DNA from: Streptomyces celluloflavus
GTDB lineage: Bacteria > Actinomycetota > Actinomycetes > Streptomycetales > Streptomycetaceae
Length of the DNA stretch: 64,000 nt
Assembly (NCBI GenBank): GCA_000720995.1
Contig: JOEL01000044.1
Location: 22,307-86,306, forward strand
Reading direction: 5' to 3'
In this document: positions 22,343 through 56,755 of the stretch, one piece after another
Position numbering within the stretch: the first letter of the stretch is position 1
Layout of the letters: the number at the start of each line of letters is the position of its first letter
The notes under the pieces: model-generated
The model's database searches: none
What the model saw: the letters and a program-made list of their open reading frames with translations, nothing else
What the model was told of the DNA's origin: nothing
Made by a program: the position numbers and the translations under genes

Positions 22343-22795
22343 TCAGCGGTCCGCCGCCTGCCGAGCGGAATGGCAGCTTTCGCACAGTCCCCACCAGATG
22401 ATCTCGGCTTCGTCGATGGTGAACCCCTTGTGCTCGAAGGGCTCCAGGCAGGGGGCCTGACCGGTGCTGCAATCGATGTCCTCGATCTGCCCGCAACCGC
22501 GGCACACCAGATGATGGTGGTTGTCCCCGACGCGCAGTTCGTAGCGGGCCGGGGACCCGGCTGGTTCGATGCAGCGGATCAGTTCGGCCTGGGTGAGATC
22601 GTCGAGCACGTTGTACAGCCCCTGCCGGGAGAGCCCCCCGGAGGAGGTCTTCCCGCCCGAGGCGATGCCGATCCGGCTCTCCAGCTCCGCCGCGGTGGAG
22701 TGCGGATGACCTTGCAGGGCGGCCAGCACGGAGCGGCGCTGTACGGTGCTCCGCAAACCCTTGGCCCTGAGCATGCCGGCTGCCACTTGGTCCAT
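22343..22795 (-). CDS. Fur family transcriptional regulator (CatR/PerR-like)
   Basis: 150 residues. Winged-helix part about 1-80, with a Gly/Ser-rich stretch at 45-55; then the metal-binding region DNHHHLVCRGCG (His93-95, Cys98, Cys101) and a second CxxC at 138-141 (CESCH), the structural zinc site of the family. Such regulators sense iron or peroxide. A clade-3 catalase gene lies 5 kb away, so a CatR-like peroxide repressor role is plausible; in S. coelicolor catR is next to catA (from memory). ATG 22795 was chosen because the upstream open frame has no Fur-like sequence. Confidence 0.85.
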   Translation of the reverse strand: MDQVAAGMLRAKGLRSTVQRRSVLAALQGHPHSTAAELESRIGIASGGKTSSGGLSRQGLYNVLDDLTQAELIRCIEPAGSPARYELRVGDNHHHLVCRGCGQIEDIDCSTGQAPCLEPFEHKGFTIDEAEIIWWGLCESCHSARQAADR

Positions 22796-23907: not shown

Positions 23908-23942
23908 TTCCCCGAATTCACCCGCGCATTTCCCCGAATTCA
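23908..23942. promoter_or_regulatory. Direct repeat TTCCCCGAATTCA, 22-base period, at the operon start
   Basis: Two perfect 13-base copies at 23908-23920 and 23930-23942; the second ends at the ribosome site of the di-iron oxygenase gene. A related CCGGAATTCCCC lies at 23584-23595. Placement over the likely leader suggests repressor sites for the operon. The remainder of the 23572-23907 gap shows no gene. Confidence 0.6.
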
Positions 23943-23951
23943 GGAGATGGG

Positions 23952-24869
23952 ATGATCAGCGAGCTGATCAGCAAGGATGAACGATTCCAGGAGATCCTCG
24001 AACGCCTGAACCGCAAATCGGTCGAGGACTACTACAACCCGTACCGGATGTTCGAGTGGCCGGACTCCCTGCCGGAGAACCGGTGGTGGATGAGCCCCGA
24101 ACTCACGACCACGTACGGGACCGAGGTTGCCGCCGAACTCGACCAGGAGCAGTTATACCGGCTGTCCCGGTACGAGAGCATCAACTTCTACAGCCTCAAC
24201 GTGGACGGTATCCGGGACCTCATCATCGAGGTGACCCGGCGCATCCACACCCGCGGCTTCGAGATTCCGTCGGAGTTCTTCCACCATTTCATCGGTGAGG
24301 AGAACGAACACATGTGGTTCTTCGCCGAGTTCTGCCAGCGCTACGGAGAGAAGATCTACCGCCAGGTGGAGTCGTCCGGGCAGGACGAGACGTGGCCGGA
24401 GGCCGCCAGCTTCCTGGTGTTCGTCCGCATCCTCCTCTTCGAGGAACTGGTCGACCACTTCAACAGCACGATGGCCCTCGACGAGCGGCTGCACGACACC
24501 ATCCGCGCGGTCAACCGCATCCACCACCAGGACGAGTCCCGGCACATCGCCTTCGGCCGTGAACTGGTCTCCCTGCTCTTCGAGGACCTGAAGACCAAGG
24601 CGTCGCCGGAGCGGCTCGACGAGATCCGGGAGTACATCAAGCGCTACGTGAACTACAGCTTCGAGTCGCTGTTCAACCCCCAGGTCTACCGGGATGCCGG
24701 AATCCCCGAACCGTTCGCCGTGCGGCGTCGCCTGCTGGCCTCCCCGCGCAGCGCGGAGTTCCAGCAGCAGGTGCTCCGCAAGCCGCTGAACTTCCTCGTC
24801 AAGACCGGGATTCTGCACGACCGGAACCTCGCCCCCACCGGCCTGCCGACCGCACGGGGGAATTCGTGA
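23952..24869 (+). CDS. AurF-type non-haem di-iron N-oxygenase
   Basis: 305 residues, a ferritin-like helical protein. The AurF metal ligands can all be placed: Glu75 (YESINFYS), Glu117 and His120 (ENEHMWFF), Glu164 (LLFEELVDH), His191, Glu195 and His198 (HHQDESRHIAF). The extra His four residues before the last ExxH is the mark of p-aminobenzoate N-oxygenase (AurF/CmlI) against other di-iron proteins. It would oxidise an amine to hydroxylamine, nitroso or nitro. Leu68 is encoded by TTA (24153), rare in Streptomyces and read by bldA tRNA. The ATG follows GGAGATGG. It is the first gene of a tightly overlapping operon. Confidence 0.82.
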   Translation: MISELISKDERFQEILERLNRKSVEDYYNPYRMFEWPDSLPENRWWMSPELTTTYGTEVAAELDQEQLYRLSRYESINFYSLNVDGIRDLIIEVTRRIHTRGFEIPSEFFHHFIGEENEHMWFFAEFCQRYGEKIYRQVESSGQDETWPEAASFLVFVRILLFEELVDHFNSTMALDERLHDTIRAVNRIHHQDESRHIAFGRELVSLLFEDLKTKASPERLDEIREYIKRYVNYSFESLFNPQVYRDAGIPEPFAVRRRLLASPRSAEFQQQVLRKPLNFLVKTGILHDRNLAPTGLPTARGNS

Positions 24870-25699
24870 CCGCGCCGATATCGATCGCTCCGGGCGGTGC
24901 GCTCAGCATCCTCAGCCCCGACGAGACGGACCTGTTGCGCACGCTGGACCGCATCGTCACCGGCTGGGCCGAAGAGGACGGCACACGGGAGATCATCCCC
25001 CCGCCGGTCTACCCGCTGCACGACCTGGAGAAGTTCGACGTCTACCGGAACTTCCCCCATCTGCAGTTCGTCGGTGGCGCGCTGGATGTGGCCGGTACCC
25101 CGCCGGCACCGGTGGCGGGCGTCTTCGCCCGCGACGACGTCGAGCTGCCGTTCCTGGGGATGCCGCACTCCACCTGCTACGGCGCCTATCTCTACTACGA
25201 GAACCAGCCCGTGGCCCCTGACACCACCCTCACTCTCGTCAACCGGTGCTTCCGCAACGAGGACAAGTACGAGGGGCTGCGGCGGCTGCTCAGCTTCCAG
25301 ATGAGAGAGGTGGTGGCGATCGGGTCGTTCGAGCACACCCAGGAGGTCCTCGATCGCTTCACCGGCCGGATCGAGCGGTTCGCCGAGGCCCTGGGCCTCG
25401 GGCTGACGAAGGTGGCGGCCACCGACCCGTTCTTCGAACGCGACGGCGCCCGCGCCCTCCTCCAGCGCCTCAGCCCGGTCAAATACGAGTTCCAGGCCGA
25501 CGGTCTGGCCATCGCCTCGGTCAACACCCACCGCAACTTCTTCGGCGAACGGTGCCGCATCACCATCGAGGGCACCGGCGAGCACGCCTACACGAGCTGT
25601 GTCGCCTTCGGCCTCGAACGGTGGCTGGCGGCCCTGAGCGACCGGTTCGAGGGCGATCTGCCCCGTGCCCGCGCCGCCGTCACCGCGGCGGCCTCGTGA
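24866..25699 (+). CDS. Amino acid:[carrier protein] ligase (class II aaRS-like)
   Basis: 277 residues, only the catalytic core of a class II (SerRS/ThrRS-like) synthetase with no tRNA-binding domain. Motif 2 is NRCFRNEDKYEG (128-138 area) and motif 3 is CVAFGLERWLAAL (245-257). A zinc triad Cys104 (HSTCYGAY), Glu148 (MREVVAIG) and Cys245 fits the Cys-Glu-Cys site of bacterial amino acid:carrier-protein ligases, which adenylate a small amino acid and move it to a phosphopantetheine thiol. The carrier protein and its activating transferase are the next genes. GTG 24866 overlaps the oxygenase stop. The amino acid accepted (Gly, Ala or Ser in known cases) cannot be read. Confidence 0.8.
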   Translation: MTAPISIAPGGALSILSPDETDLLRTLDRIVTGWAEEDGTREIIPPPVYPLHDLEKFDVYRNFPHLQFVGGALDVAGTPPAPVAGVFARDDVELPFLGMPHSTCYGAYLYYENQPVAPDTTLTLVNRCFRNEDKYEGLRRLLSFQMREVVAIGSFEHTQEVLDRFTGRIERFAEALGLGLTKVAATDPFFERDGARALLQRLSPVKYEFQADGLAIASVNTHRNFFGERCRITIEGTGEHAYTSCVAFGLERWLAALSDRFEGDLPRARAAVTAAAS

Positions 25700-26136
25700 C
25701 CGCGGCCGCGGTGCGGGTCGGCGTGGACATCGTCCCCGTCGCCCGCGTGCGGACCATGGTCGACGCCGACGGCGCCGGCCCGCTGCACCTGATGCTCACC
25801 GCGGCGGAAGCGGAGCTCAGCCGTCTCCCCGCGGGCTGGGACCTCCACGGCGTGGCCGGTCGGCTCGCCGCGAAGGAGGCGGTGTTCAAGCTGTTCCACA
25901 TCGCCGACCAGCCGCTCCCGTGGACCTCCATCGAGATCCTCAAGGGCCCCGGGCAGTGGCCGTACGTCCGGCTCGCCGGGGCGGCCGGCCGGTGGGCCGC
26001 CGAGGCCGGCCTGGCGGAGATCGACATCAGCATCTCCCACGAAGACCAGTTCGCTGTCGCCGTCGCCGCGGGTGCGGCGGTACCCCCCACGCACAAGGAG
26101 GAATGCCATGCCGAACACGACATCGTCCAACCTTGA
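25696..26136 (+). CDS. Holo-ACP synthase-type 4'-phosphopantetheinyl transferase
   Basis: 146 residues, AcpS length. Motifs: RVGVDIVPVARV with the magnesium-binding Asp11, and RLAAKEAVFK (Lys60-Glu61) followed by a SISHEDQFAVAVA strand. It transfers phosphopantetheine from CoA to the Ser of a carrier protein. GTG 25696 overlaps the ligase stop by four bases and its own end overlaps the carrier protein gene by 29 bases. A dedicated transferase implies that the housekeeping one does not serve this carrier protein well. Confidence 0.85.
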   Translation: MTAAAVRVGVDIVPVARVRTMVDADGAGPLHLMLTAAEAELSRLPAGWDLHGVAGRLAAKEAVFKLFHIADQPLPWTSIEILKGPGQWPYVRLAGAAGRWAAEAGLAEIDISISHEDQFAVAVAAGAAVPPTHKEECHAEHDIVQP

Positions 26137-26347
26137 CCAGGTGCGGAACTGGCTGCTGGCCAGGACCACCGAGCGCGACTCCATCGACCCGGACGAGGAC
26201 CTCATCACCGCCCGCCTGGTCGACTCGCTGTCCTTCGTCGAGTTCGTCCTCACGATCGAGGAGGCCAGTGGCGTCGAGATCGACCGCGAAGCCATCGACC
26301 TCGACGACTTCCGCACCCTGAAAGCCATCGAGCGGAAGTTCTTCTGA
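26108..26347 (+). CDS. Acyl/aminoacyl carrier protein
   Basis: 79 residues, acidic, four-helix carrier-protein pattern. The phosphopantetheine Ser is Ser40 in RLVDSLSFVEFVL. ATG 26108 is preceded by a perfect AAGGAGGA ribosome site, the strongest in this operon, so the carrier is probably made in excess of the enzymes, as expected. It begins inside the transferase gene and its stop overlaps the next start (TGATG). It is the likely substrate of the aaRS-like ligase. Confidence 0.88.
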   Translation: MPNTTSSNLDQVRNWLLARTTERDSIDPDEDLITARLVDSLSFVEFVLTIEEASGVEIDREAIDLDDFRTLKAIERKFF

Positions 26348-26817
26348 TGGGCCGTCTGCTCTACGCGCAGGACTACGAGACCGGTACGCTCCACGACCTC
26401 GGGTCGCACAAGGTCACGGCGGACGAAATCACCGCCTTCGGCCGGACCTACGACCCGCAGCCGTACCACGTCGACGAGGCGGCGGGGCGTGCCTCGGCCT
26501 TCGGCGGCCTCATCGCCAGCGGGTGGAACACCGCGGCGATCTGGATGCGCCTGTACGTGACGACGCTGCTGCCCGACGCCGCGGCCGAGGGCACGGTCGA
26601 GGGCTCCCCCGGCGTGGACGAGGTGCGCTTCCTGGAACCGGTCCGCCCCGGCGACGTGCTCAGCGGCACCTGCGAGATCATCGCGTCCCTGCCGTCCCTG
26701 TCGGCGCCCGACTTCCGCATCATCCGCAACCGCGGCCGGCTGGTGAACGCGGCCGGTACCGAAGTCCTCACGCTGATCCTGAACGCCCGGTTCCGGTCCC
26801 GTCCCAAGCATTCCTGA
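26347..26817 (+). CDS. MaoC-like acyl dehydratase (hot-dog fold)
   Basis: 156 residues with the hydratase-2 motif in FGRTYDPQPYHVDEAA...FGGLIASGWNT, giving the catalytic pair Asp36 and His41. Such enzymes add or remove water on thioester-bound enoyl / 3-hydroxyacyl groups. In this operon the substrate is likely bound to the carrier protein rather than CoA. If the carrier holds only a two- or three-carbon amino acid, a chain extension or a different use of the fold would be needed, which is an open point. Confidence 0.85.
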   Translation: MGRLLYAQDYETGTLHDLGSHKVTADEITAFGRTYDPQPYHVDEAAGRASAFGGLIASGWNTAAIWMRLYVTTLLPDAAAEGTVEGSPGVDEVRFLEPVRPGDVLSGTCEIIASLPSLSAPDFRIIRNRGRLVNAAGTEVLTLILNARFRSRPKHS

Positions 26818-26846
26818 CCAGCCCCTTTCCCCGAATGGAGCTTCAC

Positions 26847-27665
26847 ATGGAGACCGTGTCGTACACGTCGCAGTGGACTGCGGCCGCCCGCGCGCTGGAG
26901 AGCGAACGCAGTGACGCGCTGTTCAGCGATCCGCTGGCGCGGTCGCTGGCCGAACCCCGCGGGTTCGAACTCCTCGACCAGTACGGCGGCGGCGGGCTCG
27001 TCGAGTTCGTGGCCATCCGCACCCGCTACCTCGACGACGCGATCAACGACCTGGTGGGGCAGGGCGTCCGGCAGGTCGTGCTGATCGCGGCCGGTATGGA
27101 CACCCGCGCGTTACGCCTCAAGCTGCCGGACGACATCACCCTGTACGAGGTGGATCACCAGGCGCTGATAACGGAGAAAGAGAAACGCCTCGCCCGGCTG
27201 GCGGCCCCGTCGCCTTCCGTGCCACTGCGACGGGTCGGGGCCGACCTGGCGGGGGACTGGTCCGCGGCGCTGCGTGACGCCGGATTCGATCCGGCGCTGC
27301 CCACCCTCTGGGTGCCCGAGGCCCTGCTGTTCTTCCTCACCGAGGAGCAGTCCGCCACGCTTCTGCGCACCCTTGCCGCCAACTCCGCGCCCGGAAGCTG
27401 GGTCGCGCTGGACATCCTGAGCAAGTCGCTGCTGCGCAACCCCGCCGCCCAGATCTTCCTGTCCGCTCTCAAGTCGGACGGGATCCCCTGGCTGTTCGGC
27501 ACCGACACGCCCGAGGAGTTCCTGGCGGGCACCGGCTGGACGGTCCGGGAGCTCAAGGAACCGGGCGAGCCCGGTGCGGGCGAAGGGCGCTGGCCCTACG
27601 CCGTCCAGCCGCGCGAGGTCGGCGGCGTGGCCCGCAACTGGCTGATCCGCGCGGAACTCACGTAA
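26847..27665 (+). CDS. SAM-dependent methyltransferase (LCM / TIGR00027 type)
   Basis: 272 residues. Motif I-like region VVLIAAGMDTRALRL with Asp85, then LYEVDHQALITEKEKRL, and WVPEALLFFLTEEQ, all typical of the leucine-carboxyl-methyltransferase-like family (PF04072). Members methylate carboxyl or hydroxyl oxygens of small molecules. Leu89 is a TTA codon (27111). ATG 26847 lies seven bases after GGAG; ATG 26835 overlaps that site. It is the last gene of the operon, closed by a palindromic hairpin. Confidence 0.85.
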   Translation: METVSYTSQWTAAARALESERSDALFSDPLARSLAEPRGFELLDQYGGGGLVEFVAIRTRYLDDAINDLVGQGVRQVVLIAAGMDTRALRLKLPDDITLYEVDHQALITEKEKRLARLAAPSPSVPLRRVGADLAGDWSAALRDAGFDPALPTLWVPEALLFFLTEEQSATLLRTLAANSAPGSWVALDILSKSLLRNPAAQIFLSALKSDGIPWLFGTDTPEEFLAGTGWTVRELKEPGEPGAGEGRWPYAVQPREVGGVARNWLIRAELT

Positions 27666-27681
27666 CCGAAGCCGGTGCGGT

Positions 27682-27707
27682 GGCCCGGCCCCCGCGGGGG
27701 CCGGGCC
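27682..27707. terminator. Palindromic terminator closing the biosynthetic operon
   Basis: Two 13-base arms (GGCCCGGCCCCCG and its complement) with no spacer, 16 bases past the methyltransferase stop and 47 bases before the catalase start. Confidence 0.7.
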
Positions 27708-27754
27708 GCTCCCGGCGACCCGACAACCCATCAGCCGTACGAAGGGAAAGTGCC

Positions 27755-29212
27755 ATGAGCGTAAGTCGTCCGGTGACGACCACGGACAGCGGTATTCCGG
27801 TACCGAGTGACGAGTTCTCCCAGTCGGTGGGCGCCGACGGCCCGCTGCTGTTACAGGACCACTACCTCATCCAGAAGCTCGCCCACTTCGACCGCGAGCG
27901 CGTCCCCGAGCGGGTGGTGCACGCCAAGGGCGGCGGCGCCTACGGAGTCCTGGAGATCACCGAGGACGTCAGCCAGTACACGCTGGCCGATGTCTTCAAG
28001 CGGGGCAAGCGCACCGAACTGTTCCTGCGCTTCTCCACGGTCGCCGGTGAACTCGGCTTCGCCGACACCGTCCGCGATCCGCGCGGTTTCGCGGTGAAGC
28101 TCTACACCGAAGAGGGCAACTACGACATCGTCGGCAACAACACGCCGATCTTCTTCATCCGCGACCCGCAGAAGTTCCCCGACTTCATCCACTCGCAGAA
28201 GCGGCGTGCCGACAACCACCTGCACGACAACAACATGCAGTGGGACTTCTGGACGCTCTCCCCGGAGACGGCGCACCAGGTGACGCTGCTGATGTCCGAC
28301 CGCGGCACCCCGTACTCCTGGCGCCATATGAACGGCTACGGCAGCCACACCTTCCTCTGGTACAACGCCGCCCGGGAGAAGTTCTGGGTGAAGTACCACT
28401 TCAAGACCGACCAGGGCATCAAGAACTTCACCAACGACGAGGCCGCCGCCGCGGCCGCCGCCGACCTGGACACCCATATCCGGGACCTCCACACGGCGAT
28501 CAAGAAGGGCGACCACCCGTCCTGGACCCTCCAGGTACAGGTCATGCCCTTCGAGGAGGCCGCGGACTACCGGTTCAACCCGTTCGACCTGACCAAGATC
28601 TGGCCGCACGAGGACTACCCGCCCATCGACATCGGGACCCTCACCCTCAACCGCAACCCGCAGAACTACTTCGCCGAGGTCGAGCAGGCCGCGTTCGAAC
28701 CCTCGAACCTGGTCCCGGGAGTGGCGCCCTCACCGGACAAGATGCTCCAGGGCCGGCTCTTCAGCTACCCCGACACCCACCGCTACCGGATCGGCGCCAA
28801 CTACCTCCAGCTCCCGGTCAACCGGCCCAAGAACGCGGTGCACTCCTACAACCGCGACGGGGCCATGCGGCTCGACAACCCCGGCGACCCGGTCTACGCG
28901 CCCAACAGCCACAGCGGCCCGGTGGCCGACCCGACCCTGCTGGCCGGCGAGGGCTACGAGGCCACCGGCGAGATCGTGCGCAGCGCCCACCGGCTGCACG
29001 CCCAGGACGACGACTTCGTCCAGCCGCGCGCGCTGTGGGAGCAGGTCATGACCGATGTCGACCGCGAGCACCTGGTGACCAACATCGTCGCGCACGCCTC
29101 GGCACCCGAGGTGCTGACGGAGACGAAGGAGCGCATCGTCGACTACTGGCGCAACGTCCACAAGGACCTCGGCAGCCGGGTCGCCCAGGGTCTGGGCGTC
29201 AACGGGAAGTGA
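27755..29212 (+). CDS. katA: Monofunctional haem catalase
   Basis: 485 residues, small-subunit (clade 3) catalase. Seen are the catalytic His region RVVHAKGGGAYG (His52-55 region), the Asn of DIVGNNTPIFFIRDP, NGYGSHTF and the proximal haem Tyr region RLFSYPDTHRYRIG. It dismutates hydrogen peroxide in the cytoplasm. Leu33 is a TTA codon (27851). The ribosome site is GAAGGGA. The Fur-like regulator 5 kb upstream is the likely peroxide sensor; the biosynthetic operon lies between them. The symbol is by family only; in S. coelicolor the closest counterpart would be catA. Confidence 0.92.
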   Translation: MSVSRPVTTTDSGIPVPSDEFSQSVGADGPLLLQDHYLIQKLAHFDRERVPERVVHAKGGGAYGVLEITEDVSQYTLADVFKRGKRTELFLRFSTVAGELGFADTVRDPRGFAVKLYTEEGNYDIVGNNTPIFFIRDPQKFPDFIHSQKRRADNHLHDNNMQWDFWTLSPETAHQVTLLMSDRGTPYSWRHMNGYGSHTFLWYNAAREKFWVKYHFKTDQGIKNFTNDEAAAAAAADLDTHIRDLHTAIKKGDHPSWTLQVQVMPFEEAADYRFNPFDLTKIWPHEDYPPIDIGTLTLNRNPQNYFAEVEQAAFEPSNLVPGVAPSPDKMLQGRLFSYPDTHRYRIGANYLQLPVNRPKNAVHSYNRDGAMRLDNPGDPVYAPNSHSGPVADPTLLAGEGYEATGEIVRSAHRLHAQDDDFVQPRALWEQVMTDVDREHLVTNIVAHASAPEVLTETKERIVDYWRNVHKDLGSRVAQGLGVNGK

Positions 29213-29240
29213 CCACGAACCCCACAGTCAGGAGCAGACC

Positions 29241-30023
29241 ATGAGTTCGGCCGCGACCGTCACGGTACGGCGTCTCGCCTGGGCCGGGGTCGAAGTGGCC
29301 GCCGGGGATGTGCGGGTGGTCATCGATCCGCTGCAGAACACCGCGGACCTCGCCGGGTTCCAGGGCATGCCGCGGCGCCCCATGCCCGGCATCGGGGCCT
29401 CCCCGGGGGTGCGGACCCACGCCCTCATCACCCACCTCCACCCCGACCACTGCGATCGCCAACTGCTGACCGACATCGCCGGCAGCGAAGGCGGCACGGT
29501 GGGGTGTCACGCCCCGATCGTGGACGTCCTGGCCGGGATGGGGGTGACCGCGACGCCGCAGACACTGGGCGAGCGGCGCCAGCTCGGCCCGTTCACCGCC
29601 CTCCCCGTCGCCTCGCACGACTGGCGCGGTGACGACCAGGTCGCCTGGATCGTCGAAACCGCCGGTCTGCGCGTCATCCACTTCGGCGACACCATCTGGC
29701 ACGGCAAGTGGTGGCAGATCGCCCGCGACCACGGCCCTTTCGACGTCGCCTTCCTCCCGATCGCCGGAGTGATGACGCGCCGCGAGGGATTCACCCCCAC
29801 CAACCAGCCCGCCACGCTCACCCCCGAGCAGGCCGTCGAAGCCGCGGTCGTCCTCCAGGCGTCGACCGCCTGCGCGATCCACTACGACCTGTTCAACAAC
29901 CCTCCGTACTACACCGAGCAGCACGACGTTCGCGGGCGCTTTCTGCGCGCCGCCCAGGCCAGGGGCATCCACGCGGTCGCTCCCGGCGACGGGGAACCCG
30001 TGCCGTTCGCCAGCGCCGCCTGA
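29241..30023 (+). CDS. MBL-fold metal-dependent hydrolase
   Basis: 260 residues with the metallo-beta-lactamase HxHxDH motif as THLHPDH (His65, His67, Asp69, His70), a third-ligand His in VASHDW, Asp in HFGDTIWH and a final His in CAIHYDLF. It resembles UlaG/UPF0173-like hydrolases. It has an AGGAGC ribosome site 28 bases after the catalase stop, so it may be co-transcribed with the catalase. The substrate is unknown. Confidence 0.8.
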   Translation: MSSAATVTVRRLAWAGVEVAAGDVRVVIDPLQNTADLAGFQGMPRRPMPGIGASPGVRTHALITHLHPDHCDRQLLTDIAGSEGGTVGCHAPIVDVLAGMGVTATPQTLGERRQLGPFTALPVASHDWRGDDQVAWIVETAGLRVIHFGDTIWHGKWWQIARDHGPFDVAFLPIAGVMTRREGFTPTNQPATLTPEQAVEAAVVLQASTACAIHYDLFNNPPYYTEQHDVRGRFLRAAQARGIHAVAPGDGEPVPFASAA

Positions 30024-31392
30024 CCACACCAAGCTCGGACACCCGCCGGGCCGTTCCCCCGTACCGCGAGCCCCGTGGTGCCCGCGGGGGCGACGGCCCG
30101 GCGGGCGCTCATGGAAGGAACATTCGTGACCCCGCCCCCCGAACGGGAAGCCCCCGTGTCCCCACGCCCCGAGGCGGCTGACGTGCCGGCACCCCCCGAG
30201 GCGGCCGAGGTGCCCGCACCGGCCGGGCGCCCGGCCGCCGAGCACGGCGCCGAGTCCGCCCACGGCGCGCGGCGCGGCCGTCATCTGCTGTGGTACGCCC
30301 TGGTGGTGCTGCTGGTCGGGATCAACATGCGGCCCGCGATCGTCGCGGTCTCCCCGCTGCTGGACGAGATCCGGCAGGCCACCGGCCTGTCCAACGGCGC
30401 CGCGGGCGCGCTGTCCACCCTGCCGCTGATCTGCTTCGGCATCTTCGCTCCGCTCGCGCCCCGGCTGGCCCGCCGCTGGGGGATGGAACGCACCCTGGTC
30501 GCGGTGCTGCTGGTGCTGCTGTGCGGGATCGCCGTACGCCTGGTCCCGTCGCTGTTCCCGCTGTTCGCCGGGTCGTTCCTGGTCGGCACCGCGGTGGCCG
30601 TCGCCAACGTGGTCATCACCGTCGTGATCAAGCGGGACTTCCCGCGGCACGTCGGGCTGATGTCCGGTCTGCACACCACCATGCTGGTCGGCGGCGGCGC
30701 GGTCGCGGCCGCCGTGACCGTCCCGCTGCGCGACGCCCTGTCGCTCTCCTGGGCCGGCGGCCTCGCCATCTGGGGCGTCCTGGCGCTGGCCGCGGTGCTG
30801 GTGTGGGTGCCGCGGCTGCGCCGCGGGCGCGAAGTCCCGCAGACCCGGGCGCAGGCGGACGGTTCGATGTGGCGCAGCGGACTGGCCTGGGCCGTCGCGC
30901 TGTTCTACGCGTTCCAGTCCCTGCTGTACTACACCGCGACCACCTGGCTGCCGTCGTTCTACATCTCCCACGGCTACTCGGAGGGTGGCGCCGGCATGCT
31001 GCTGGCGGTCTGCATGGGCTCCGCGATCGTCACCTCCCTCCTGGTGCCGGTGTGGGCGCAGCGGTCCCGGCGGCAGAGCTACCTGGCGTTGGGCGGCACC
31101 CTGCTGTGCGTGGCCGCCTTCGTCGGGCTGATCTCCGCACCGACCGGGGCGGCGGTCCTGTGGGCCGTGCTGCTCGGCCTCGGCCTGGGGGCCGTCCTGT
31201 CGCTGGGCATCACCTATATGTCCATGTGTGCCCGCACCACGCACGACGCCGGACTGCTGTCGGCGATGTCCCAGTGCGTGGGCTACCTGCTCGCCGCCGT
31301 CGGCCCCACCACCTTCGGCGCCGCCCGCGACCTGACCGGCAGCTGGACCGCGGGGCTGATCGCGCTGGTGATCCTGGCGGTACCGATGGGCC

Positions 31393-32589
<1,197 letters not shown>

Positions 32590-56655: not shown

Positions 56656-56755
56656 GTCCGATCCCCTCCAACTGACGTCAATGATCAGCAGTGTGTCATG
56701 CGGTCAGGGGCACGAACAGACTGCATATCTGATTCTGCAAATTACAGACTGATCC

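Follow-up and report, generated by a model that had tools for sequence, protein, structure and literature searches.

Close to the locus reported here stands the pathway to enteromycin carboxamide, in which, according to citing papers, carrier-bound glycine is oxidised by a diiron oxygenase to a nitronate, on which a methyltransferase then acts (He and Ryan 2021, as cited in PMC12183544 and PMC9967187); PMC12154687 also cites a nitronate-forming ferritin-type diiron oxygenase (FDO). A second system is the akazaoxime/A-76356 cluster of Micromonospora humidisoli AKA109 (pks/nrps-3), for which PMC9967187 lists an A-PCP protein (56660), a KS-AT-KR-ACP protein (56670), an ACP (56710), a methyltransferase (56720) and a C-A(Leu)-PCP protein (56840), with glycine, leucine and propionate as precursors. 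In the scheme given there, glycine is loaded on the nonribosomal peptide synthetase (NRPS) protein 56660; akazaoxime itself has an aldoxime, and the published assignment of its methyltransferase is that of a nitronate O-methyltransferase (PMC9967187). Here, we analysed a 64,000-nucleotide stretch of Streptomyces celluloflavus DNA (contig JOEL01000044.1, positions 22,307 to 86,306; hereafter the window), in which a nine-gene unit encodes an AurF-like diiron oxygenase, an aminoacyl-tRNA synthetase (aaRS)-like ligase, an AcpS, a carrier protein, a MaoC-type protein, a methyltransferase and three further proteins (Table 1). We propose that this unit is a stand-alone O-methyl nitronate cassette, in which glycine is loaded on the carrier, N-oxidised and O-methylated, with MaoC in place of elongation, and we put the probability of this reading at about two-thirds (0.68).

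From the citing papers' account of enteromycin carboxamide, the core chemistry has already been described, and clusters sharing the core are common. The statement in a first-pass annotation of this DNA, made from the sequence alone, that it knew of no described pathway with this exact set and no NRPS or PKS is therefore not borne out, while its outline of loading, N-oxidation and methylation is probably broadly right. What looks new is the version with MaoC and without an elongation enzyme, and the unit resembles a slimmed-down form of known antibiotic pathways. In the sequence of steps that we propose, AcpS would convert the carrier to its holo form, and the ligase would adenylate an amino acid, most likely glycine, and attach it to the carrier. 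With glycine in place there, the diiron oxygenase would oxidise the glycine amine, probably to the nitronate (aci-nitroacetyl) level, and the methyltransferase, of the leucine carboxyl methyltransferase (LCM) type, would cap the nitronate to give an O-methyl nitronate. There would be no handover to an NRPS, polyketide synthase (PKS) or KASIII-like enzyme, as there appears to be in relatives; MaoC would finish the unit instead, and the metallo-beta-lactamase-fold protein is a possible agent of its release. Roles in peroxide removal and in product export are conceivable for catalase and the MFS protein, respectively.

The AurF-type oxygenase, the stand-alone carrier and the methyltransferase are encoded together, the combination by which we recognise an O-methyl nitronate cassette, and this linkage recurs widely. 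The main set of relatives was drawn from 225 matches to two peptide patterns, of which the best 80 were kept, and is biased towards the window's kind. Ligase matches in 61 genomes gave 28 places outside the window, of which 19 were taken at length as further loci (6.7 to 20 kb each) and nine weaker ones at about 3.5 kb; six of the 19 were without an oxygenase and were excluded, which left 93 oxygenase loci (80 + 13), the window not counted. A gene was scored if a tblastn match lay at most 9 kb from the oxygenase, and early contig ends could hide genes. Pfam domains were scanned in one locus per type (type B, L074; type C, L034; type D, L069; nitronate monooxygenase type, L045), the others being assigned by sequence clusters. 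In 78/80 loci (L062 and L126 are the exceptions), the ligase gene comes next after that of the oxygenase on its downstream side, and 91/93 loci have it within 9 kb. Among the 80, the carrier was found within this distance in 78, AcpS in 73, the methyltransferase in 75, MaoC in 37 and a KASIII-like protein in 29. A ligase was also present at all 30 loci that a distant oxygenase picked out in 295 same-genus genomes (five of the 30 are the window or were already counted), and matches to the broad ligase family were obtained in 113 of the 345 genomes from this taxonomic family.

The window oxygenase has, by motif match, counterparts of the six metal ligands and the seventh histidine of FDO N-oxygenases (E75, E117, H120, E164, H191, E195 and H198), seven metal-site residues that are listed in PMC13061610, and four of the metal-site spacings of that paper are kept (3, 27, 4 and 3). 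Searches of the PDB with oxygenase profiles returned nothing at 0.001 and two weak R2-like matches at E 1, so a structure comparison was needed. Foldseek gave a modest match to AurF (E 3.8e-4, TM 0.57), and VIA-align gave a clearer match to the AurF/CmlI-type fold. The fold and the seven residues together bear out an AurF/CmlI-type oxygenase. AurF and CmlI are 12% identical to the window protein over aligned residues, and, in contrast to theirs, its expected substrate would be an aliphatic aminoacyl-carrier. Two other settings of such enzymes were considered and set aside: proteins of the hydrazine and diazo pathways (dob and azaserine type, with the AurF-like Dob3) have no counterpart of their kind among the nine Pfam-scanned genes of the unit, no wider search having been made, and the lipothrenin cluster (LitN) has a diiron N-oxygenase with other partners. 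The host genome holds three more AurF-family matches (G000:C12:261324-263305 and G000:C5:216371-217249), two of them adjacent and divergent.

The 277-amino-acid ligase shows a class II synthetase core, and its Cys, Glu and Cys columns (C104, E148 and C245) are invariant in 12/12 and 11/11 aligned sequences and in register with 3mey. A profile of 12 ligases found Bll0957 structures (PDB 3mey, 3mf1, 3mf2 and others) as its best match, at E 1.6e-41 over profile positions 28 to 274; the profile also picked up TAL effector structures, in short matches of about 60 positions that were discounted. Such Cys, Glu and Cys residues are metal-type ligands in Bll0957, which is not known to have an oxygenase partner. 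The match to tRNA-synt_2b, at 29.4 bits, stands just above the cut-off of 29.3. By its NF005479 score, the protein resembles the amino acid:[carrier protein] ligase class but lies outside that equivalog. The class named in the first-pass annotation is borne out by the invariant columns, as is the carrier protein by its phosphopantetheine-type serine, S40, which is invariant in 15/15 aligned sequences. Ligase columns such as HRNFFGERC are identical in the window and in types B and D, which lends indirect support to glycine as the amino acid loaded.

Type B loci (for example L074 from Streptomyces albireticuli and L060 from S. achromogenes, the two species from which enteromycins were isolated) carry the core with KASIII-like, ATP-grasp and pyridoxal phosphate (PLP) decarboxylase proteins, a second carrier and acyl-CoA dehydrogenases. 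On the basis of this gene content and the source species, we read type B as enteromycin-like; a literature search for enteromycin together with albireticuli found nothing. The type B loci suggest that an aaRS-like ligase may be the glycine-activating enzyme of the enteromycin carboxamide pathway. Among the papers listed in a literature search, none used the phrase "aminoacyl-tRNA synthetase-like". The window unit differs from type B in that it is without the KASIII-like, second carrier, c10, ATP-grasp, decarboxylase and acyl-CoA dehydrogenase genes, and, conversely, no MaoC, catalase or metallo-beta-lactamase-fold protein was found within 9 kb of the type B core by tblastn. Searched for in the host genome, c10 of type B gave no match (run without a positive control genome), and the type B KASIII-like protein gave two weak matches only, the better at 29% and 32.2 bits.

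With the akazaoxime/A-76356 cluster the window shares the diiron oxygenase and a stand-alone ACP (56710) directly before the methyltransferase (56720). A similar order is seen in type D loci (L055, L056, L069 and L079), which have the core, including the ligase, together with A-PCP and KS-AT-KR-ACP proteins; neither of these two proteins occurs in the window unit, and no MaoC was found near type D by tblastn within 9 kb. The order in L079 is A-PCP, KS-AT-KR-ACP, a beta-lactamase-like protein, oxygenase, ligase, carrier and methyltransferase, so that three genes stand between PKS and carrier, which fits tags 56680 to 56700, although this is tag arithmetic and not a sequence comparison. Among 160 Micromonospora genomes, an oxygenase more than 56% identical to that of the window was found in the L056 genome only.

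The methyltransferase accompanies the oxygenase in most loci (81 of the 93), in line with the methylation step of the first-pass annotation, and the window protein is 60 to 67% identical to those of type B, 58.5 to 60.4% to type D, 53 to 56% to type C and 52 to 55% to type F. In the tree, it groups with the proteins of these four types, of which type D is called akazaoxime-like by architecture alone. The host genome has seven places with LCM matches, of which L133 is the window gene and L131 is without a gene call; the five other proteins compared are 26 to 38% identical and fall outside the cassette clade. Four of the 93 loci have a nitronate monooxygenase (NMO) instead, none has both and eight have neither. 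In L045, the NMO is recognised by PF03060 (E 5.8e-35) and is accompanied by an alpha/beta hydrolase. An NMO also adjoins the core in 10 of the 30 same-genus loci (three already counted) and in 6/10 Micromonospora loci, and no methyltransferase was matched in the short flanks of these NMO-bearing loci. The presence of a nitronate-consuming family in the place of the methyltransferase points to nitronate as the common intermediate. The 2021 article of He and Ryan (Nat. Chem. 13, 599) reportedly names denitrification in its title as the other branch. We infer that the NMO-type loci (L038, L045-L047 and others), which, as in L045-L047 and L160-L166, share the oxygenase, carrier and ligase families with the window but have NMO where the window has its methyltransferase, are the denitrification cassettes of that article.

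The MaoC protein has a hotdog fold with an Asp-x4-His motif, presumably the MaoC (R)-hydratase motif; D36 and H41 are invariant in 20/20 aligned sequences, and the predicted model (pLDDT 95.0, best structure match 3exz) resembles known hydratases and dehydratases. The methyltransferase accompanies MaoC in 40 of the 41 MaoC loci. The 81 methyltransferase loci divide into 40 with MaoC only, 34 with an elongation enzyme only (defined as matching any of four query proteins) and seven with neither, and none has both; because the loci are related to each other, 40 versus 34 are not independent events. In L064, the MaoC of a neighbouring cassette lies just outside the 9-kb limit. MaoC-bearing types occur at two places of the methyltransferase tree, type A among B, B2, D2 and E (support 92/97) and C, F and C2 together (93/97), so that perhaps more than one lineage is involved, and the 81 loci are not independent in this respect either. 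Together with a host genome that gave no clear c10 or KASIII-like match, the mutual exclusion of MaoC and elongation makes the window appear to be a stand-alone variant whose MaoC would stand in for chain extension.

What MaoC might do there can be narrowed down. A two-carbon unit from glycine would give MaoC none of the usual enoyl substrates, so that MaoC would have to act on a C=N system or serve in release, unless the amino acid is another one. Our first choice is that the O-methyl nitronate is released or modified, and our second that the amino acid differs. The boldest option, a long shot in our estimate, is that MaoC makes the O-methyl nitronate on the carrier lose methanol (or water) and so become an acyl nitrile oxide, with a free, tiny 1,3-dipole as product; on this equally speculative view, O-methylation would be leaving-group activation and not a cap. 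The mutual exclusion with elongation suggests that MaoC uses the nitronate itself and is what speaks for this option.

The second-ranked option would make MaoC an ordinary hydratase/dehydratase: the loaded amino acid would have a beta carbon (alanine, serine or beta-alanine) and be N-oxidised, and MaoC would act on the enoyl thioester left after loss of nitrite or water. The kept Asp36/His41 pair and the hydratase/dehydratase-like fold fit this, as does the fact that the presence of MaoC sets these cassettes apart from elongating ones. However, the same ligase columns occur in type D, which is built like a cluster that uses glycine, and loss of nitrite would waste the methyltransferase that is so regularly encoded with MaoC, so we regard the proposal as unlikely. 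A halt of the oxygenase at the oxime, with an O-methyl oxime as product, would find a parallel in the aldoxime of akazaoxime, which comes from a similar cluster, but is countered by the replacement of the methyltransferase by NMO in sister cassettes and by the nitronate O-methyltransferase assignment in PMC9967187; we consider it quite improbable. It is harder still to credit that the LCM-family enzyme, true to its family name (PF04072), esterifies a carboxylate to give a nitro or oximino methyl ester, since the carboxyl would be tied up as the carrier thioester and the protein groups with proposed nitronate O-methyltransferases.

Several points weigh against the stand-alone O-methyl nitronate reading. 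The ligase scores 94.6 bits against the NCBIfam model "amino acid--[acyl-carrier-protein] ligase" (NF005479), far below the equivalog cut-off of 357, and the glycine assignment comes from shared ligase columns and not from a solved pocket. In the oxygenase, two metal-site spacings differ from those of Dob3 (42 versus 36 and 47 versus 61), and a sequence search of the PDB with its profile missed both AurF and CmlI at E 1. Support for the methyltransferase cassette clade is 93/97, below the 95 mark, and the branches of the host proteins are long. Seen from the ligase side, the linkage is looser: this oxygenase lies within about 1.5 kb at 13 of the 28 ligase places and at 15 it does not. The likeness to the enteromycin carboxamide pathway (carrier-bound glycine, diiron oxygenase and methyltransferase) is one of cited description. 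In three of the four type D loci (L055, L056 and L069), PKS and carrier are separated by four genes, one of them (AcpS) in excess of the akazaoxime tags, and in two Micromonospora loci (L156 and L157, oxygenase 43% identical) an adenylation-domain protein adjoins and no ligase was matched in 1.5 kb, so that loading may also follow the NRPS route of akazaoxime.

The six genes of the first-pass annotation, in tight order from 23952 to 27665, stand as described in coordinates and domains (Pfam and NCBIfam). Their junctions are -4, -4, -29, -1 and +29 bases, with overlap at four of the five, and third-position GC is 0.90 to 0.94 across all six; gene calls come from a GC-frame script. The operon is thus real, but the end at 27665 proved too short, since conservation spans nine genes. 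The gene order of the window was found again in 5/80 loci, which with the window make up type A: L050 (Streptomyces pinistramenti), L051 (S. hiroshimensis), L052 (S. roseoverticillatus), L053 (labelled Streptosporangium nondiastaticum) and L054 (S. klenkii). Their DNA aligns with the window by blastn in one to three pieces at 83.9 to 86.2% identity, starting at 23930-23941 and ending at 31426-31436; positions 30026 to 30231 are unaligned in L052-L054, and outside these bounds matches of 52 and 66 bases only were found. Recurrence of the order with aligning DNA argues that the arrangement is not due to chance, and conservation up to 31436 that the catalase, the metallo-beta-lactamase-fold protein and the MFS transporter belong to the unit. 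Catalase was found near the core in these five relatives only, among 99 loci scanned, and the metallo-beta-lactamase-fold protein and the MFS transporter each in 5/80 loci, all of type A. The idea that this is the sole catalase of the host was ruled out by two others in the genome. All five relatives have a divergent gene upstream, identified as LysR by Pfam in L052 and by clustering elsewhere; a search for its remnant in the window found none, with one 48-residue match at E 0.85. On the other strand upstream of the conserved unit, positions 22343 to 22795 of the window encode what appears by eye to be a Fur-family regulator.

Table 1. Genes of the proposed cassette and extent of the conserved unit (window coordinates)
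Feature	Position	Strand	Supporting match
AurF-like ferritin-type diiron oxygenase, proposed nitronate-forming N-oxygenase	23952..24869	+	Pfam AurF PF11583 E 8.7e-33
aaRS-like amino acid:[carrier protein] ligase, proposed glycine-activating	24866..25699	+	tRNA-synt_2b E 9.9e-7; NCBIfam NF005479 E 5.4e-27
AcpS-type phosphopantetheinyl transferase	25696..26136	+	PF01648 E 1.3e-10; TIGR00556 50.1 bits, cut-off 45.35
Stand-alone carrier protein, proposed phosphopantetheine serine S40 (26225-26227)	26108..26347	+	PF00550 PP-binding E 2.7e-6
MaoC-type hotdog protein with Asp36/His41	26347..26817	+	PF01575 E 3.1e-15
LCM/TIGR00027-type S-adenosylmethionine (SAM) methyltransferase, proposed nitronate O-methyltransferase	26847..27665	+	PF04072 E 1.5e-45; TIGR00027 E 6.1e-62
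Monofunctional catalase, in conserved unit	27755..29212	+	PF00199 E 1e-187
Metallo-beta-lactamase-fold protein, in conserved unit	29241..30023	+	PF12706 E 1.7e-18
MFS transporter, in conserved unit, perhaps exporter; start codon uncertain	30183..31436	+	PF07690 E 6.9e-28
Conserved nine-gene unit	23930..31436	+	blastn vs L050-L054

Other relatives show how variable the surroundings of the core are. Type C loci (for example L034-L036) have the core with MaoC, a second methyltransferase and SAM-recycling genes, which suggest a heavy methylation demand; these genes (SAM synthetase, PfkB kinase, MetH, MTHFR and S-adenosylhomocysteine hydrolase) are present in L034-L036 and in many of L099-L129, as scanned in L034 and by clustering elsewhere. 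One contig of Streptomyces sp. HNM0574 carries two different cassettes about 12 kb apart (L064 and L111). In L040, oxygenase, carrier and ligase are followed by an NRPS (two condensation stretches, A, PCP and TE) and then by a phosphopantetheinyl transferase (PPTase), an O-methyltransferase of another family and an M20 peptidase; L041 is alike by clustering, and the two appear to be an NRPS-fed variant without the LCM methyltransferase. L042, L043, L044 and L048 (also L031 and L032) have ligase and carrier without the oxygenase. L042 encodes a PhyH-type dioxygenase and a gene that clusters with the L040 PPTase, and the same clusters recur in L043, L044 and L048; judged by gene content, such loci would pair ligase and carrier with a different oxidising enzyme in a second kind of cassette. 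A short contig labelled Candidatus Melainabacteria (L071) holds oxygenase, ligase, AcpS, carrier and MaoC, with 65 to 66% (oxygenase) and 68% (MaoC) identity to the window, and may be of actinobacterial origin and misbinned.

The O-methyl nitronate is a rare and reactive group. As the aaRS-like ligase is a regular partner in this oxygenase clade, our data suggest that glycine usually enters without an NRPS adenylation domain, although more distant oxygenases do adjoin adenylation domains. If the akazaoxime cluster also holds the ligase, its published loading step (56660) would need revision. The family also splits into elongating cassettes and stand-alone MaoC cassettes, and the latter would draw attention, within six small proteins, to the step that a hydratase-type protein may carry out on a two-carbon nitronate.

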